Shown: positions 5,299 through 62,254 of the stretch, in pieces | How the letters are laid out: every line of letters begins with the position of its first letter | Numbering within the stretch: the stretch's first letter is position 1 | Source: Pseudoclavibacter soli DSM 23366 | Lineage (GTDB): Bacteria; Actinomycetota; Actinomycetes; Actinomycetales; Microbacteriaceae | Assembly (NCBI RefSeq): GCF_000423505.1 | Contig: NZ_AUIC01000004.1 | Coordinates: forward strand, 1-64,000 | Direction: 5' to 3' | Length of the DNA stretch: 64,000 nt | The notes under the pieces: generated by a model | What the model was told of the DNA's origin: nothing | Databases searched by the model: none | What the model saw: the letters and a program-made list of their open reading frames with translations, nothing else | Position numbers and translations under genes: made by a program

Positions 5299-5322
5299 TT
5301 CTATGGCAGACGCATTGGCAGA

Positions 5323-5404
5323 CGCGGTGGCAGGATTCGAACCTGCGTTGGTATCGCACAGCGGGCTATGAGACCGCTTCCTTCGTCCACTTGGATACAC
5401 CGCG
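5323..5404 (-). tRNA. tRNA-Met-like gene (anticodon CAT) with a long variable region
   Basis: Minus-strand cloverleaf of about 82 nt. Acceptor arms CGCGGTG (5398-5404) and CACCGCG (5323-5329) pair perfectly. D stem is TCC/GGA with GG in the loop. T arm GCAGG-TTCGAAT-CCTGC is canonical. The anticodon loop contains CTCATAG, so CAT. The anticodon stem is imperfect: GCGGT/CCCGC has a T-C mismatch next to a 7-nt loop, or AGCGG/CCGCT pairs fully around a 9-nt loop. The variable region is about 13-14 nt without an obvious stem. The discriminator base would be T and no CCA is encoded. It may be an atypical or degenerate tRNA; functional identity is uncertain. Confidence 0.55.
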
Positions 5405-5519: not shown

Positions 5520-5592
5520 TCCCCTGTAGCTCAATTGGCAGAGCATTCGACTGTTAATCGAAGGGTTGTTGGTTCGAGTCCAACCGGGGGAG
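5520..5592 (+). tRNA. tRNA-Asn (GTT)
   Basis: Canonical 73-nt tRNA. Acceptor arms TCCCCTG (5520-5526) and CGGGGGA (5585-5591) pair with one G-U. The anticodon loop CTGTTAA gives anticodon GTT. The D loop TCAATTGGCAGA and the T arm GTTGG-TTCGAGT-CCAAC are standard. CCA is not encoded. It is followed by a terminator. Confidence 0.95.
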
Positions 5593-35743: not shown

Positions 35744-37450
35744 CTACCGCGGCTGCAACGTGCCGTCGCGCAGCTGCCAGGCACGGTCGATCAGCTCGGC
35801 GGGCACGTGGTCGTGGCTCATCACGATGATCGCCGGTGCGTGGTCAGCGTCAGAGGCAGCGCTCAGCAGGTCGGTGAGCAGTCGCTGAGACATCTCTGGA
35901 TCGACGTTGGCGGTGGGCTCGTCGAAGACCACCACCGGAAAGCGTGCCAGCAGTGCACGTGCCAGCGCGATGCGCTGCACCTGACCGCCCGAGAGCAGCT
36001 CGCCGTGCTCACCGACCAGCGTGTCGAGCCCCTCTCTCTCGGTGAGCAGCTCACCCAGGCCGACCCGCTGCAGCGCAGCGACCAGCTCGTCGTCTTCGGC
36101 GGTGGGATGCGCCAGCAGCAGATTGGCTCGAATGGTCGAGGCGAACAGATGTGGCCGCTGCTCGCACAGACCGACCGTGCGTCGCACCCGGTCTCCCCCG
36201 AGGTCACGCACGTCGATGCCGTCGAGCAGATAGCTGCCCGCATGATGGTCGAGAAAACGCACGAGCGTGGCCGCGAGCGTGCTCTTGCCGGCACCACTGG
36301 CGCCGGTGACCAGCACCCGGTCGCCAGGGTGCAGCGTGAGGTTAATGTGGCTGGCCACCGGTTCGGCAGCAGACCACCCTATGCTGACATCACACAATTG
36401 CAGTGAGGTGAAACCGACGGCGTCGGCATCCGGCAAGGCACCGTCGGCCGCGGCACGTGGGGCATCAGGGGCGCCCACGCCCGAGTCGATCACCTCGCCA
36501 ATGCGCCGCGACGCCACCTGCACGTTCTCGAGGGCGCTCATCGCGGCCGGCACCTGGCCGAAGACATCGAAGATGCTGATCGGCACGAGCACCAGCACGG
36601 CCAGCATGGTGCCAGCGAATGCGCCCGCGGTGAGCTCGGTTCCGCCAGCCCACAGCGCACCGATCACCGCTACCCCGGTCAGCGCCAGCAGTACGAAGTC
36701 GGTGATGCCCTGCGACGACGCGCGTGAGGCGTCGACCTCGGCTGTGCGGTCGGCCAGGATGCCCGCCTCGGCCTGTGCGACTTCGGTCGCCTCATATGCG
36801 CTCAGCACGTCGAGGCCGGTGAGCGTCTCGAGCGTGTGCTGGTTCTGCTCGGCGCGCAGCCCGGCTGCGCCGCTGGTGATGCGCCGATGAGTGCGCTGTG
36901 GCAGCACGCCGCCAAGCACGAAGGCGGCGACCAGGCAGATCGCCACAATGACGGCTACGTGAACCGAGAAGCTGCCCAGCACCACAACCGTGGCGGCACT
37001 GACCAACACCGAGGTGAACAGCGGCTGCCAGAAGCGCAGTGGCAGATCCTGCAGATCATCGACGTCAGAGACGAAACGACTCATCATGTCGCCGCGGCTG
37101 ATGCGGCTGAGGCTGGCGGGCGCGCCGGGCACCAGGCGCTCGAAGATGCCCACGCGCAGGCGGCCGAGCATGCGGAACGCCGCGTCGTGCGATGCGAGTC
37201 GTTCGATGTAGCGAAAGAAGGCGCGACCCAGCGCGAAGAAGCGCACCGACACGATCACCCACATGAGTGTGAGAATGAGCGGCCGCAGCGATGAGGCGGC
37301 GATCAGGTAGCTGCTGGCCCACATCAGCCCGATCGCGCAGGCTGCGCTCAATGAGCCGAACAGTATGCCGCTCCAGAAGCGCTTGGGCTCTGGGGTGGCC
37401 AGATCACGCAGTCGGGCATCGACGCCCGGGGCGGGAAGACGCAGGCTCAC
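35744..37450 (-). CDS. cydC: Heterodimeric ABC exporter subunit CydC
   Basis: 568 residues. With CydD it exports cysteine/glutathione or otherwise supports heme delivery for cytochrome bd assembly. Six membrane helices fill residues 20-300 (GRAFFRYIERLASHDAAFRML is the CydC hallmark). The nucleotide domain has VTGASGAGKSTLAATLVRFL near 382, LSGGQVQRIALARALLARFP near 485 and VVVFDEPTANVDPEM. The start overlaps the cydD stop as ATGA. It is the last gene of the cytochrome bd operon. Confidence 0.92.
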   Translation of the reverse strand: MSLRLPAPGVDARLRDLATPEPKRFWSGILFGSLSAACAIGLMWASSYLIAASSLRPLILTLMWVIVSVRFFALGRAFFRYIERLASHDAAFRMLGRLRVGIFERLVPGAPASLSRISRGDMMSRFVSDVDDLQDLPLRFWQPLFTSVLVSAATVVVLGSFSVHVAVIVAICLVAAFVLGGVLPQRTHRRITSGAAGLRAEQNQHTLETLTGLDVLSAYEATEVAQAEAGILADRTAEVDASRASSQGITDFVLLALTGVAVIGALWAGGTELTAGAFAGTMLAVLVLVPISIFDVFGQVPAAMSALENVQVASRRIGEVIDSGVGAPDAPRAAADGALPDADAVGFTSLQLCDVSIGWSAAEPVASHINLTLHPGDRVLVTGASGAGKSTLAATLVRFLDHHAGSYLLDGIDVRDLGGDRVRRTVGLCEQRPHLFASTIRANLLLAHPTAEDDELVAALQRVGLGELLTEREGLDTLVGEHGELLSGGQVQRIALARALLARFPVVVFDEPTANVDPEMSQRLLTDLLSAASDADHAPAIIVMSHDHVPAELIDRAWQLRDGTLQPR

Positions 37451-39081
37451 GCTCGCACCTCCTCGGCATCGCGGCTGCCGATGGCGACCTGCACATCGGC
37501 GGCGTCGCGCACAGTGTCGCGGTGGCTGACCACCACGACGGCTCGCCCGGCGTCGGCCAGCTCTCGCATGCCGGCGATCATCTGCGCTTCGGTGACCTCG
37601 TCGAGGGCACTGGTGGGTTCGTCAAGCAGCACGATCGGGCAGTCATGCTCGAGTGTGCGGTAGAAGCAGCGTGCCACAGAGACGCGCTGGGCCTGCCCGC
37701 CGGAGACTCCTTCGCCCAAGGCATCCAAGTGCTGATCGGCTGAGAGTTCGTCGGCTCCGGCCAGATGCAGCGCGCGCTCGATGAGCTCGTCATCGGGTGT
37801 CGCAGAGCCGAGTGAGACGTTGCCGCCGATGGTGCCGGTGAACAGGCGCGCCTGCTGACCGCTCCAGGCGATGGCCGGCTGAGCGTTCTCACCAGCCGCG
37901 AAGTCGATCACTCGATCGCCGATACGCACCTGACCAGTGGCCGCGACGGTGCCGGTGAGCGCGCCGAGCAGGCTGCTCTTGCCCGCACCCGACGGGCCAT
38001 GCAGCACCGTGATCGCACCGAGCGGCGCGGTGAAGCTCACTGGAGCCAGCATGCGCTCGCCGCGTACGACAACAAGGTTGTCGACCTGCAGATCGCCAAC
38101 AGCATGCACCGGGCGCACCGGGCGCACCGGCTCGTCAAGAATGCTCAGCACGTCGTCGGCGGCCGAGATGCCCTCGGTGGCAGCGTGATAGTGCGAGCCC
38201 ACCAGGCGCAGCGGAGCGAACGCCTCAGGAGTGATCAGCAGCACGAACAGCCCGGTGTACAGGTCGAGTTCGCCGGCGATCATGCGAGTACCAATCGAGA
38301 CGGCGACCAGCGCCACCGACAGCGTGGCGCAGATCTCGAGTACGAAGCCCGACATGAACGAGACGCTGAGCACTTTCATTGTGCGACGGCGGTACTGATC
38401 GGTGACCTCGCTGATCACCTCTTGCTGGTGACCGGCGCGGCCGAAAATCTTCAGCGTCGACAGCCCTGTGACCACGTCGACGAAGTGACCGGCCAACCCG
38501 CGGCTGGCCTCCCACTCGGCGTCTTGCACACGCTGGGTATACCAGCCGATCAAGATCATGAAGATCGGGATCAGCGGAAGCGTCACCAAGACGATGACCG
38601 CAGAGGTCACGTCGTTGAGAAACAGCACCAGCACCAATGTGGGTGTGGCGAGTGCGGTGAGCACCAGCTGGGGTACGAACTTCGAGAAATAGCCGTCAAG
38701 AGCATCGAGGCCGCGACCATAGACCGTGGTGAGCTGGGCTGGGCTGCGCCCGGCCATCCATTGTGGGCCCAGCGCAACGAATTTGGCGAACAGGCGCTCA
38801 CGCAGCTGGCTCTTGACCTTGGCTGAGGCAAGCTGGGCGCTGGCATTGGCTGCGAAGCCGAGAGCAGCACGTGCGGCCTGAGCCACCGCAGCGATGAGCA
38901 CAAGGCGCAGGCTTTCGCCCCAAGTGGCGTGCAGCATCAGCATGTCGGCGATGGCCTGGCTCACCGCCCAAGAGAACGCGACGATCGCCACGACTTGGCC
39001 GGCACCGATGAGCGCGCTGATGGCGATGTACCATGCGGCGCCGCGGGCTTGGCGCAGCAGGCGCGGGTCGATGGGCTTGAT
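37447..39081 (-). CDS. cydD: Heterodimeric ABC exporter subunit CydD, apparent ATC start
   Basis: About 544 residues if read from 39081. ABC exporter partner of CydC. Membrane part: LAKFVALGPQ-like loop and LPLIPIFMILIGWYTQRVQD near 175 are typical of CydD; ATPase part: LHGPSGAGKSSLLGALTG near 365 and SGGQAQRVSVARCFY. The first canonical in-frame start is GTG at 38991, but the 30 codons before it (KPIDPRLLRQARGAAWYIA and onward) match the conserved CydD N-terminus. At the position where ATG is expected the codon is ATC (39079-39081), preceded by GAGGTG. Either a rare ATC start or a start-codon mutation. Confidence 0.85.
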   Translation of the reverse strand: MKPIDPRLLRQARGAAWYIAISALIGAGQVVAIVAFSWAVSQAIADMLMLHATWGESLRLVLIAAVAQAARAALGFAANASAQLASAKVKSQLRERLFAKFVALGPQWMAGRSPAQLTTVYGRGLDALDGYFSKFVPQLVLTALATPTLVLVLFLNDVTSAVIVLVTLPLIPIFMILIGWYTQRVQDAEWEASRGLAGHFVDVVTGLSTLKIFGRAGHQQEVISEVTDQYRRRTMKVLSVSFMSGFVLEICATLSVALVAVSIGTRMIAGELDLYTGLFVLLITPEAFAPLRLVGSHYHAATEGISAADDVLSILDEPVRPVRPVHAVGDLQVDNLVVVRGERMLAPVSFTAPLGAITVLHGPSGAGKSSLLGALTGTVAATGQVRIGDRVIDFAAGENAQPAIAWSGQQARLFTGTIGGNVSLGSATPDDELIERALHLAGADELSADQHLDALGEGVSGGQAQRVSVARCFYRTLEHDCPIVLLDEPTSALDEVTEAQMIAGMRELADAGRAVVVVSHRDTVRDAADVQVAIGSRDAEEVRA

Positions 39082-39116
39082 CGTGCACCTCGTGGTCGAA
39101 TTGGATGTGGGAAGAC

Positions 39117-39173
39117 GATGAGGGTCGTCTTCCGACTGCTGCTCACAACAGTGTACGGAAAACGACCCTCATC
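39117..39173. repeat. Long hairpin between cydB and cydD
   Basis: Arms 39117-39134 and 39156-39173 (18 bp, one mismatch) form GATGAGGGTCGTCTTCCG-type stem around a 21-nt loop. It lies between the cydB stop (39189) and the cydD start. No T-run follows. It could stabilise cydAB mRNA, attenuate cydDC, or reduce translation of cydD. Confidence 0.8.
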
Positions 39174-39188: not shown

Positions 39189-40217
39189 TCAGTGCGCGGC
39201 CTGCTCGATGTGTTTGACAGTGACCCGCTTGCGGAACACCCAGTAGGTCCAGCCTTGGTAGACCAGCACGATCGGCAGGGCGATCACGGCCACCCAGGTC
39301 ATGAACTGCAGCGTGTTCTGCGAGCTCGAAGCGGTGGTCAACGTGAGGCTGTGCTCCAAGCCGAGCGTCGACGGCAGCACCATGTGAGCGTCATATGAGG
39401 TGAACAGCACCATCCACAGCGCCAGCACGGCGAACACCACGGTCAGCGCAGTGAAGGTGAAGGCCAGACCGTCACGCTTGACCCAGTTGAACCCGAAGCT
39501 GACGATCAGGGTGACCGCGGCCAGGGCCGAGAACAGCAGCACCACTGGCGAGAAATGGATGATGTTGGTCCAGAGTAAGAAGCTCGCCGCAACCACGATG
39601 GTCAGGATGCCCGCCTTGCGCCCCAGCGCATGTGCCCGGTCGCGCACCACACCATCGGTCTTCAGTGCCACGAACTGCACACCATGGGTGAAGAACAACA
39701 GCAGCGTGGTGAGACCGCCCAGCAGCGCGTAGGGGTTCAGCAGCGTGAACAGGGTGCCCTGGAAGACGTAGGAGTAGCCGATCTTCTCGATGGGCAGCCC
39801 GTTGATGATGTTCGCCACGGCAACGCCCCAGAGCAGAGCAGGCAGTGCTGAGCCGATCACGATGAAGGCATCGAACCAGTTCGACCAACGGCCGGCACGA
39901 CCCTGGTGCCGGTACTCGAACGAGACACCGCGCAGAATCAGTGCGACCAGAATCAGGAACAGGGCGAGATACGCACCGCTGAACAGCGTGGCGTACCACT
40001 CGGGGAAGGCCGCGAACAGCGAGGCGCCGGCGACGATCACCCAGGTCTCGTTCATATCCCAGACCGGGCCGATGGTGTTGATCACCTGGCGCCGCTCGTT
40101 GTTGGTCTTGCCGAGGAACGGCAGTGACATGCCGACGCCGAAGTCGAAGCCGTCAAGCACAAAGTAGCCGACGAACAGCACCCCGACGATGAGGAACCAG
40201 AGAATTTCGAGAGTCAT
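39189..40217 (-). CDS. cydB: Cytochrome bd ubiquinol/menaquinol oxidase subunit II
   Basis: 342 residues, integral membrane with about eight or nine helices. VLFVGYFVLDGFDFGVGMSLPFL opens the family fold, and VINTIGPVWDMNETWVIVAG near 47 is the conserved block. It pairs with CydA to reduce oxygen with quinol. 15 nt separate it from cydA. Confidence 0.96.
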   Translation of the reverse strand: MTLEILWFLIVGVLFVGYFVLDGFDFGVGMSLPFLGKTNNERRQVINTIGPVWDMNETWVIVAGASLFAAFPEWYATLFSGAYLALFLILVALILRGVSFEYRHQGRAGRWSNWFDAFIVIGSALPALLWGVAVANIINGLPIEKIGYSYVFQGTLFTLLNPYALLGGLTTLLLFFTHGVQFVALKTDGVVRDRAHALGRKAGILTIVVAASFLLWTNIIHFSPVVLLFSALAAVTLIVSFGFNWVKRDGLAFTFTALTVVFAVLALWMVLFTSYDAHMVLPSTLGLEHSLTLTTASSSQNTLQFMTWVAVIALPIVLVYQGWTYWVFRKRVTVKHIEQAAH

Positions 40218-40232: not shown

Positions 40233-41720
40233 TTAGTAAGTGATCGCCAGTTTGTGCGGGTCGATCTCGGCCGTGCCATCGGAGTGGTCGTCGACATCGA
40301 ACTCAGGCGGCCCGGCTTGGGCAGCCTTCTTGATCAGGCGGAACTCTACGACAGCCAAGGCGCCGTAGATCACGGTGAACAGCAGCAGCGAAAGCCCGAC
40401 CGACCAAGCGGGCACGTTGGGCGATACCGCGCTCTCGGTGGTCATCAGGCCGAAGACGATCCACGGTTGACGCCCCATCTCGGCGAAGACCCAGCCGACC
40501 AGGTTGCCCAGCAGCGGCAGCGGCGCCGACCAGATGGCGACTCGCCACGCCCAGTCGGGCACGGCACGCGTAGCGGTGCGGCGGGTCAGCCACAGGCCCA
40601 CGATGGCCACCAGCAGGCTGAAAGCGCCGAGACCCATCATCCAACGGAACGACCAGTAGGTCACCCACAGCGTCGGAATGAAGCCGCCGTCAGACGGGCA
40701 GGTCAGCGCAGCATTCAGCGCATCTGCGCCGCAGAACTGCGAGGTGTACTGCGCCTGCAGATCATTCAGGCCTTCGACTGTACCGTCGAACGTGTGCGTC
40801 GACAGGAAGGACAGCAGGTAGGGCACACGCAGAGAGAACAGCTCGCTGTGACCGTCGGGGGTGCCCAGCGTGAAGATCGAGAATGAGGCGGCGGCGCCAG
40901 TCGAGGTGTTGTACATCGCCTCGGCGGCAGCCATCTTCATCGGCTGAGTTTTCACCATGGCCAGCCCCAGTTGATCACCGGTCAGGAACACCGCGGCGAA
41001 ACCGGCGATGACCGACCATGCACCGATCTTCAGACCGGTGCGCATGCTCTCAACGTGCTGGTTGCGGCGCAGGTGGTAGGCAGCCACAGAAATGATGACG
41101 GCACCAGCGAACAGTACGGCACCGGCGATGGCGTGCGGGAAGGCCGCCACTGCCACAGGGTTGGTGAGCACCGCACCGATGTCGTTGAGCTCAGCACGGC
41201 CGCGTTCGGCGTTGATCTCGTAGCCGACCGGGTTCTGCATGAACGAGTTGGCCACGATGATGAAGTACGCCGAGAGAATTGTGGCGATGGAAGTCAGCCA
41301 GGCCGAAGCCAAGTGCACACCGCGCGAGACACGGTTCCAGCCGAAGATCCAGACGCCAATGAAGGTCGCCTCCAGGAAGAAGGCGAACAGGCCCTCCATG
41401 GCCAGCGGTGCGCCGAAGATATCACCGACGAAGCGGGAGTACTCTGACCAGTTCATACCGAACTGGAACTCCTGCACGATACCGGTAACTACACCCATGG
41501 CGAAGTTGATCAGGAAGATCTTGCCGAAGAGCTTGGTGAGCTGCAGGTACTTCACCTTGCCAGTGCGCACCCACGCGGTCTGGATGATCGCGACGATGAG
41601 CATGAGCCCAATCGTCAGCGGCACGAAGAGATAGTGGTACAGCGTGGTGGCCCCGAACTGCAGTCGCGCCAAGGTCAGCGCGGTGGGATCACTCTGCAAC
41701 ACAGCCAATGTCTCGGTCAT
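40233..41720 (-). CDS. cydA: Cytochrome bd ubiquinol/menaquinol oxidase subunit I
   Basis: 495 residues. Carries hemes b558, b595 and d. The axial His is in ATTLYHYLFVPLTIGL near residue 25. EMGRQPWIVFGLMTTESAV near 405 is the GRQPW signature and includes the Met ligand. The quinol loop is short (no long Q-loop insertion). Start at 41720 (MTETLAVLQS) has AAGGAA upstream; the longer frame to 41801 would include the promoter region. First gene of cydABDC. Confidence 0.96.
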   Translation of the reverse strand: MTETLAVLQSDPTALTLARLQFGATTLYHYLFVPLTIGLMLIVAIIQTAWVRTGKVKYLQLTKLFGKIFLINFAMGVVTGIVQEFQFGMNWSEYSRFVGDIFGAPLAMEGLFAFFLEATFIGVWIFGWNRVSRGVHLASAWLTSIATILSAYFIIVANSFMQNPVGYEINAERGRAELNDIGAVLTNPVAVAAFPHAIAGAVLFAGAVIISVAAYHLRRNQHVESMRTGLKIGAWSVIAGFAAVFLTGDQLGLAMVKTQPMKMAAAEAMYNTSTGAAASFSIFTLGTPDGHSELFSLRVPYLLSFLSTHTFDGTVEGLNDLQAQYTSQFCGADALNAALTCPSDGGFIPTLWVTYWSFRWMMGLGAFSLLVAIVGLWLTRRTATRAVPDWAWRVAIWSAPLPLLGNLVGWVFAEMGRQPWIVFGLMTTESAVSPNVPAWSVGLSLLLFTVIYGALAVVEFRLIKKAAQAGPPEFDVDDHSDGTAEIDPHKLAITY

Positions 41721-41757
41721 GTGCGTTCCTTCACGGTCGTTCTGATGGCATCGAGCA

Positions 41758-41777
41758 TCTCCGACACCTGTTGGAGA
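41758..41777. promoter_or_regulatory. Palindromic operator candidate at the cydA transcription start
   Basis: TCTCCGACA (41758-41766) and TGTTGGAGA (41769-41777) form a near-perfect 20-bp palindrome with one mismatch. It covers the predicted start point just after the -10 box at 41777-41782. A repressor there could control cytochrome bd expression. It does not obviously match Rex (TTGTGA-type) or Fnr sites. Confidence 0.6.
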
Positions 41778-41805
41778 CGTTACTCCACGCCCAACGCCCA
41801 TGCAA
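41777..41805 (-). promoter_or_regulatory. cydA promoter
   Basis: Minus-strand TTGCAT (41800-41805), 17-nt spacer, TAACGT (41777-41782). The start would be near 41770, giving about 50 nt of leader. Confidence 0.65.
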
Positions 41806-61362: not shown

Positions 61363-62150
61363 GCGGAATCCTCGGCGATAGCGGCAATCAGGTCTCGACG
61401 CGCACGCACAAAGCTCGGCTCGGCAATCAGATCGTCGTCATCGACCCCGGCGCGCCCCCAACCGTCGCGTTCGAGCACAATCTGTGCGGGGGCTCCGCCG
61501 AGCACGAGCACCCGGTCGCCCATCAACAGCGCCTCTTCGATGTCGTGGGTCACCAGCACCAGGGTGGTGCCGAGGTCATCGAGCACCTCGCGCATCCAGC
61601 GCCGAGCTGCACTGCGTGTGATGGCGTCGAGCGCCCCGAATGGCTCATCGGCCAGCAGCACCGGGCGCTCGCTGAGCAGAGCACGCATCAGTTGCGCACG
61701 CTGTCGCATGCCACCGCTGAGCTCATCGGGCCGGGCAGAGCGTCGGCCGCCCAGCCCCCATCGATCAAGGGCTGCTGCCGCTTGGCGACGGGCTGCCGCG
61801 CGGGAGGCCCCCGCCGCTCGCAGGCCCAGCCCCACGTTGTCGTCGAGGCGAGCCCAAGGCAGCAGCGTGTCGGTTTGTGAGGCCAGGGCACATTGCGCTG
61901 CTCTGCGCTGATCGATTTCGGCCATGCCGATCGCGATGCTGCCCTGCGACTGTGGCAGCAGACCGGCGATCAGCCGCAGCAGGGTGGTTTTGCCGCAGCC
62001 CGAGCGGCCGACCAGGCTGAGACGCTCACCGGCGTTGAGAGTGAGCGACACTCCAGCGAGTACGTCAGCGGCCGAGCCCATCGGGCGCCAGGCGACCTCA
62101 CTCAGGTGCACTGGCGCAGCTGCAGGCGCGCGCGACGAATCGTGCCTCAT
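61350..62150 (-). CDS. thiZ: Thiamine-precursor ABC transporter ATP-binding protein
   Basis: 266 residues. Walker A SLVGRSGCGKTTLLRLIAGL near residue 45, signature LSGGMRQRAQLMRALLSERP near 145 and Walker B VLLADEPFGALDAITRS. NrtD/SsuB-like family. First gene after the TPP riboswitch, whose end lies 6 nt before its ATG, so the riboswitch probably hides or exposes the ribosome site. Confidence 0.9.
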   Translation of the reverse strand: MRHDSSRAPAAAPVHLSEVAWRPMGSAADVLAGVSLTLNAGERLSLVGRSGCGKTTLLRLIAGLLPQSQGSIAIGMAEIDQRRAAQCALASQTDTLLPWARLDDNVGLGLRAAGASRAAARRQAAAALDRWGLGGRRSARPDELSGGMRQRAQLMRALLSERPVLLADEPFGALDAITRSAARRWMREVLDDLGTTLVLVTHDIEEALLMGDRVLVLGGAPAQIVLERDGWGRAGVDDDDLIAEPSFVRARRDLIAAIAEDSACAA

Positions 62151-62155
62151 TCGAC

Positions 62156-62231
62156 AATCCCTCCGCCCGGGTCAACGGGATCAGGTTCGACGGGTGTGAT
62201 CTCAGCCCGCCTGCTGCGGGCACCCCGTGTC
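62156..62231 (-). promoter_or_regulatory. TPP (THI-box) riboswitch
   Basis: Minus strand contains ACGGGGTGCCC near the 5' end, GGGCTGAGATCACACCC and GAACCTGATC in the middle, and GGCGGAGGGA at the 3' end, the conserved TPP aptamer blocks in order. A -10-like TAGGCT (62240-62245) would start transcription at about its first base. The element ends next to the thiZ start, suggesting translational control by thiamine diphosphate. Confidence 0.93.
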
Positions 62232-62254
62232 GATGCACCAGCCTAGCGCACGAA

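Follow-up and report, generated by a model that had tools for sequence, protein, structure and literature searches.

The window analysed here, a stretch of 64,000 nucleotides from Pseudoclavibacter soli DSM 23366, carries a cyd operon on its minus strand, with the following features in the order of transcription:

40233..41801, minus strand: cydA (Cyt_bd_oxida_I, 527.8 bits)
39189..40217, minus strand: cydB, ATG start (TIGR00203 cydB, 294 bits)
39117..39173, minus strand: inverted repeat/hairpin in the cydB-cydD gap, with 18-nt arms at 39117-39134 and 39156-39173
39086..39091, minus strand: Shine-Dalgarno sequence GAGGTG of cydD, kept in four of four genus species, predicted pairing -9.6 kcal/mol
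39079..39081, minus strand: cydD start codon ATC, read directly, ATC in four of four genus species, with no canonical in-frame alternative
37447..39081, minus strand: cydD coding sequence from the ATC, 544 aa (TIGR02857 CydD, 501.6 bits, cut-off 435; ABC_membrane and ABC_tran)
38989..38991, minus strand: GTG, the first canonical in-frame cydD codon (codon 31) and the pick of a caller limited to ATG/GTG/TTG, from the ORF list and a frame scan
35744..37450, minus strand: cydC, GTG start overlapping the cydD stop (GTGA) (TIGR02868 CydC, 510 bits, cut-off 329)

The identity of CydD follows from a TIGR02857 score above the curated cut-off and from the adjoining cydC and cydAB genes. Between the cydB stop (39191-39189) and the cydD ATC lies a gap of 107 nt. 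Elsewhere in the window a TPP riboswitch lies at 62140-62237 on the minus strand (RF00059, 64.1 bits), and two tRNA genes separated by about 115 bases occupy opposite strands, at 5322-5404 (minus) and 5520-5592 (plus).

The initial annotation had read an ATC start for cydD with GAGGTG 4 nt before it, and direct reading of the minus strand agrees: ccacGAGGTGcacg ATC AAG CCC ATC GAC CCG CGC CTG CTG CGC, with the conserved CydD N-terminus KPIDPRLLR directly after the ATC. Its observation that the frame is free of ATG, GTG and TTG back to a stop and that the first usable GTG is downstream also held, as the 29 codons from the ATC back to a TGA contain no ATG, GTG, TTG or CTG in the cydD frame and the next canonical codon is the GTG at 38991. 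An ORF opened at that GTG has 514 aa, against 544 aa when read from the ATC. Another GTG, at 39088, lies inside GAGGTG in a frame different from that of cydD. The site has the properties of the AUH class of starts: at the position homologous to the relatives' start its codon departs from AUG in the third base alone, its Shine-Dalgarno sequence stands at normal spacing, its codon class is conserved among relatives, and its conserved N-terminus comes without a usable in-frame ATG, GTG or TTG, the exception among relatives being one congener, G002.

Comparison within the genus covered four species, the window's genome (G000, 2.2 Mb, 9 contigs) and the congeners G001, G002 and G003, whose CydD proteins are 58-60% identical to that of the window over the best segments. 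All four start cydD with ATC, directly preceded by GAGGTG(A/C)AC(G/C). Because independent genomes share the ATC, a sequencing error is ruled out. Two other non-canonical starts were considered and rejected: the upstream ACG, since the codon before the ATC is ACC in G001, and the downstream CTG codons 8 and 9, before which no purine-rich Shine-Dalgarno sequence is visible by eye and the preceding residues are conserved.

The hairpin in the cydB-cydD gap is likewise shared, folding strongly in all four genus species (z -6.9, -5.1, -5.8 and -7.0) in gaps of 107-143 nt. By eye, its arm sequences differ among G000, G002 and the G001/G003 pair, and every species has TACACT in the loop or close to it (gaps of the window, L061, L062 and L063); within G000 the hairpin sequence matches at its own place only. 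We do not call it a terminator, as by eye no T-run follows it. It may act as an mRNA stabiliser for cydAB, or may bring the cydD Shine-Dalgarno sequence near the cydB stop.

Across the family, a CydD N-terminal match was found in 211 of 398 genomes, and the start was read by script as the codon before [KR]P-x-D at 138 cydD loci, one per genome, of which 119 were readable. These gave GTG 65, ATG 27, ATC 12, ATT 5, CTG 4, TTG 4, GTC 1 and GCG 1, counts that are not family frequencies because the sample leans to the window's close relatives and to genus g11; ATA was seen at 0 of the 119 loci. At the loci read as GTC and GCG, the frame contains an ATG or GTG further 5'. Nineteen loci were dropped, namely 14 without the anchor, four with A for K/R, and L227, which was read separately as ATC; among the 14, nine have ATG 2-4 codons before the P, one has GTG, one has TTG and three have no anchor. 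The expectation in the initial annotation that relatives carry ATG at this position was thus wrong, as GTG is the commonest start (65/119) and the nearest relatives have ATC.

AUH starts recur outside the window's genus. In genus g11, which includes a Rhodoluna MAG, cydD was present in 13 of the 60 genomes sampled, a set with many incomplete genomes, and every one of the 13 starts with ATC (8) or ATT (5). The Rhodoluna MAG locus L043 and that of Microbacteriaceae bacterium L056 share their CydD with the g11 loci L225 and L229, and both have ATC. The single locus from a third genus (G088, g84) also starts with ATC. Other codons occur nearby: G227, a g11 genome outside the 60-genome sample, has TTG, and G181 (g14) has ATG though it falls in the same CydD clade as g11. 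The comparison of relatives proposed in the initial annotation returned ATC in four of four genus species, and in the g11 sample all 13 genes had either ATC or ATT.

A pattern search extended the survey to the class. ATH followed by KP-x-D, a pattern that misses cydD genes with other N-termini, matched one of 296 class genomes, G000 itself, with all genomes counted whether or not they have cydD. A looser pattern had matches in 62 of the 398 family genomes, and seven of these matches are cydD by position (G000-G003, G088, G178 and G418). The majority of the remaining matches fall outside the genome's cydD match or in genomes that have none, and none of 12 further matches that were translated was CydD-like. 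By eye, cydD of L146, L148, L162 and L170 (g31, g89, g95) has an apparent CTG start overlapping the cydB stop (CACTGA), which is a different device from the AUH start. Also by eye, the cydD ATT of L233 and L235 overlaps the cydB stop (CATTAAG, read as CAT TAA and ATT AAG).

We asked whether cydD is exceptional among its neighbours. Forty-eight ORFs of the window had matches in two or more of the three congeners, and 46 were examined, o17 and o22 being left out for opposite-strand overlap. Six of the 46 showed at least 60% identity in the translated sequence 5' of the first canonical start. Three of them overlap a neighbouring ORF: o271 with o323 and o296 with o194, from their coordinates, and o318 with an upstream ORF in another frame, which we take to be HIT-like. 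Another of the six, presumably S20-like, has a GTG start and 8-9 leader residues, and cydA has 5-8 residues before its first ATG. Only cydD has 31-48 aligned residues 5' of any canonical start without overlap by a neighbouring gene. At the 18 AUH loci, cydB starts with ATG in 13, the other five being unreadable by script. Together with the window control, the canonical cydB start indicates that the odd codon is specific to cydD and appears to be no general habit of these operons.

The initial annotation had left two options, that the ATC is used or that the start was lost, and the evidence favours the first. A start lost by mutation or misread, with CydD made from the codon-31 GTG or not made, is compatible with the window taken alone, in which the frame from that GTG is open to the stop, but is very improbable given the ATC and ATT codons in the genus and in g11. 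In addition, codons 2-30 show pN < pS in six of six genus species pairs when matched by position in an ungapped comparison, a constraint consistent with translation that begins at the ATC but not with a start at codon 31, and the first canonical codon downstream shifts between species (codons 31, 40, 40 and 23). We give hardly any credence to a start upstream or out of frame, at GTG 39088 or the G002 ATG, with the cydD frame reached by frameshift or fusion: the GTG within GAGGTG is kept across the genus and G002 has an in-frame ATG 11 codons 5' of its ATC, absent from the other three genus species, but that GTG is the Shine-Dalgarno sequence itself and is missing from g11 loci such as L225 and L228. 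The cydD frame of G001 and G003 reads TGA ACC ATC or TGA ACG ATC at the start, a stop two codons before the ATC that leaves almost no room for another cydD start. The frame correction joining GTG 39088, which the initial annotation had allowed for, fails on this TGA and on the absence of the GTG in g11 loci, L225 among them.

Predicted initiation signals before the AUH codons are stronger than those before GTG or ATG. Shine-Dalgarno pairing was predicted from the 20 upstream nt against a general 16S tail, from which those of these genomes may differ, and ranges from -9.6 to -12.1 kcal/mol in the window's genus. Median pairing is -7.6 kcal/mol for AUH loci (n=17), -5.8 for GTG (n=65) and -5.7 for ATG (n=27). 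AUH loci exceed the 92 pooled GTG/ATG loci with a Mann-Whitney p of 0.006, a value not to be taken strictly as the rows are related. Two AUH loci, L233 (-4.1) and L235 (-5.7), have weak Shine-Dalgarno sequences.

On a 46-row CydD tree, g84, g87 (G091, GTG start) and the window's genus form one clade (98/97), and the g11/g14 rows form a separate clade (100/99). Changes between AUH and other starts number five on this tree, with the third base of AUH rows switching between C and T at least three times, and an 86-row quick tree needs four changes. AU tests rejected neither a joint clade of the window's group and the g11 group (p 0.21) nor a clade of g84 and the window's genus without the GTG row (p 0.127). 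As the joint clade is left standing, we do not claim independent AUH origins. With one origin or several, AUH has persisted across large CydD divergence with ATG one mutation away.

Natural AUH starts are already known, and cydD resembles several of them. Like infC (AUU/AUC/AUA, with IF3 autoregulation), cydD combines an AUH start with a preceding Shine-Dalgarno sequence and interchanges AUC and AUU between relatives; unlike infC, which encodes the factor that judges the codon, it encodes a membrane transporter. In the genomes analysed here, infC starts with ATT (8) or ATC (10) in 18 of 20, the other two being unread, and in G000 (L178, G000:C2:395039-395248) ATT stands at the usual start with AAGGAG before it; these readings rest on the known infC start and Shine-Dalgarno position, and some genomes, G000 included, have an in-frame TTG, CTG or ATG further upstream. 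E. coli pcnB, a gene outside translation, is reportedly limited by an inefficient AUU start; cydD is likewise a non-translation gene with an AUH start, and differs in codon, gene and phylum.

Published measurements suggest how such a start might behave. According to the available portion of one in vitro study, IF3 requires codon positions one and two to pair, lets non-Watson-Crick pairs pass at position three and excludes weak ones there; with a CAU anticodon AUU was tested, and at high IF3 no product formed from AUC with other, mismatched anticodons (PMC10158994), a result that speaks against AUC being used efficiently. Work in living cells is more favourable. Excerpts from work on Staphylococcus put AUU/AUA starts at ~10% of AUG, one of them reaching as much as 30% in rich medium, and describe an extended Shine-Dalgarno sequence at each (PMC13009471). 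For Listeria, the accessible text ranks start strength as ATG > ATA > ATT and gives rnhC an ATC start (PMC13068326), and in B. subtilis a lacZ fusion whose start was mutated to AUC, in the part of the report at hand, was still expressed at a far lower level (PMC10303841). The cydD start is thus like those of Listeria rnhC (ATC) and Staphylococcus cvfC1 (AUU) and ccpN (AUA), which are fixed AUH starts, those of cvfC1 and ccpN having an extended Shine-Dalgarno sequence and being called conserved in the portions available (PMC13068326, PMC13009471). Those starts, in other genes and another phylum, have experimental support, unlike that of cydD, which is known from its sequence. In the partly accessible literature searched for cydD/CydDC start codons and Microbacteriaceae ATC starts, we found no cydD AUH start, and as far as that search goes the cydD genes of this family are an addition to the class.

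Our favoured reading, in which we have considerable confidence, is that AUC is a real, retained and weak start that limits CydD and, via the GTGA overlap, CydC relative to cytochrome bd. The computed basis comprises a conserved codon without a canonical alternative, the N-terminal constraint, the stronger Shine-Dalgarno pairing and a canonical cydB start where readable; we infer actual initiation at AUC, lower output and a stoichiometric purpose. Ordinary initiator tRNA would start cydD at AUC, positioned by the strong Shine-Dalgarno sequence, with the first two codon bases pairing normally and the third mismatched, as in infC and pcnB (AUU). By analogy with the published measurements in living cells, the AUC should give low CydD and, through the overlap, low CydC. 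Selection would then keep the poor codon in order to hold both below the CydAB oxidase. CydDC is the transporter that matures the oxidase, and the cell plausibly requires less of it than of CydAB.

Two rivals of this account keep the ATC start and differ on what it is for. One holds that cydD starts with its ATC codon and that the codon is tolerated, near-neutral in a low-demand gene, and not a selected brake. The TTG (G227), ATG (G181) and GTG (G091) starts of close relatives, inside or beside the AUH clades, mean that the AUH codon is not absolutely required, and the presence of cydD in just 13 of the 60 g11 genomes, many incomplete, suggests that demand may be low. With ATG one mutation off, near-neutrality sits poorly with 13 of 13 g11 genes staying at ATC or ATT while the third base switches, and with stronger Shine-Dalgarno sequences accompanying AUH, as if level mattered; we regard it as unlikely, though worth keeping in view. 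The other, which we find rather doubtful, is that AUH makes cydD responsive to IF3 like infC, with CydDC rising when free IF3 is low. The ATT/ATC starts of infC in the same genomes favour it, as does the in vitro exclusion of weak third-base pairs by IF3 in the available text of PMC10158994. On the other side, the CydD transporter is not known to be linked to IF3, and we know of no reason for it to follow that factor. An extension that we offer as speculation is that cydD and infC form an IF3-gated group, in which a low ratio of free IF3 to 30S subunits would let CydDC rise, the genus hairpin adding a second control layer.

Returning to the favoured reading of a retained weak start, one practical consequence is that, in the window's species, ORF callers limited to ATG/GTG/TTG cut 30 residues from CydD. 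Apart from infC, the partly available literature searched names few natural AUC/AUU starts. If the IF3-gated group were real, cytochrome bd maturation, and with it respiratory assembly, would be tied to translation state. The same weak start has been kept in one gene across two or three actinobacterial lineages, and the natural ATC, ATT, TTG, GTG, CTG and ATG versions of that gene make selection on start strength testable within one operon.
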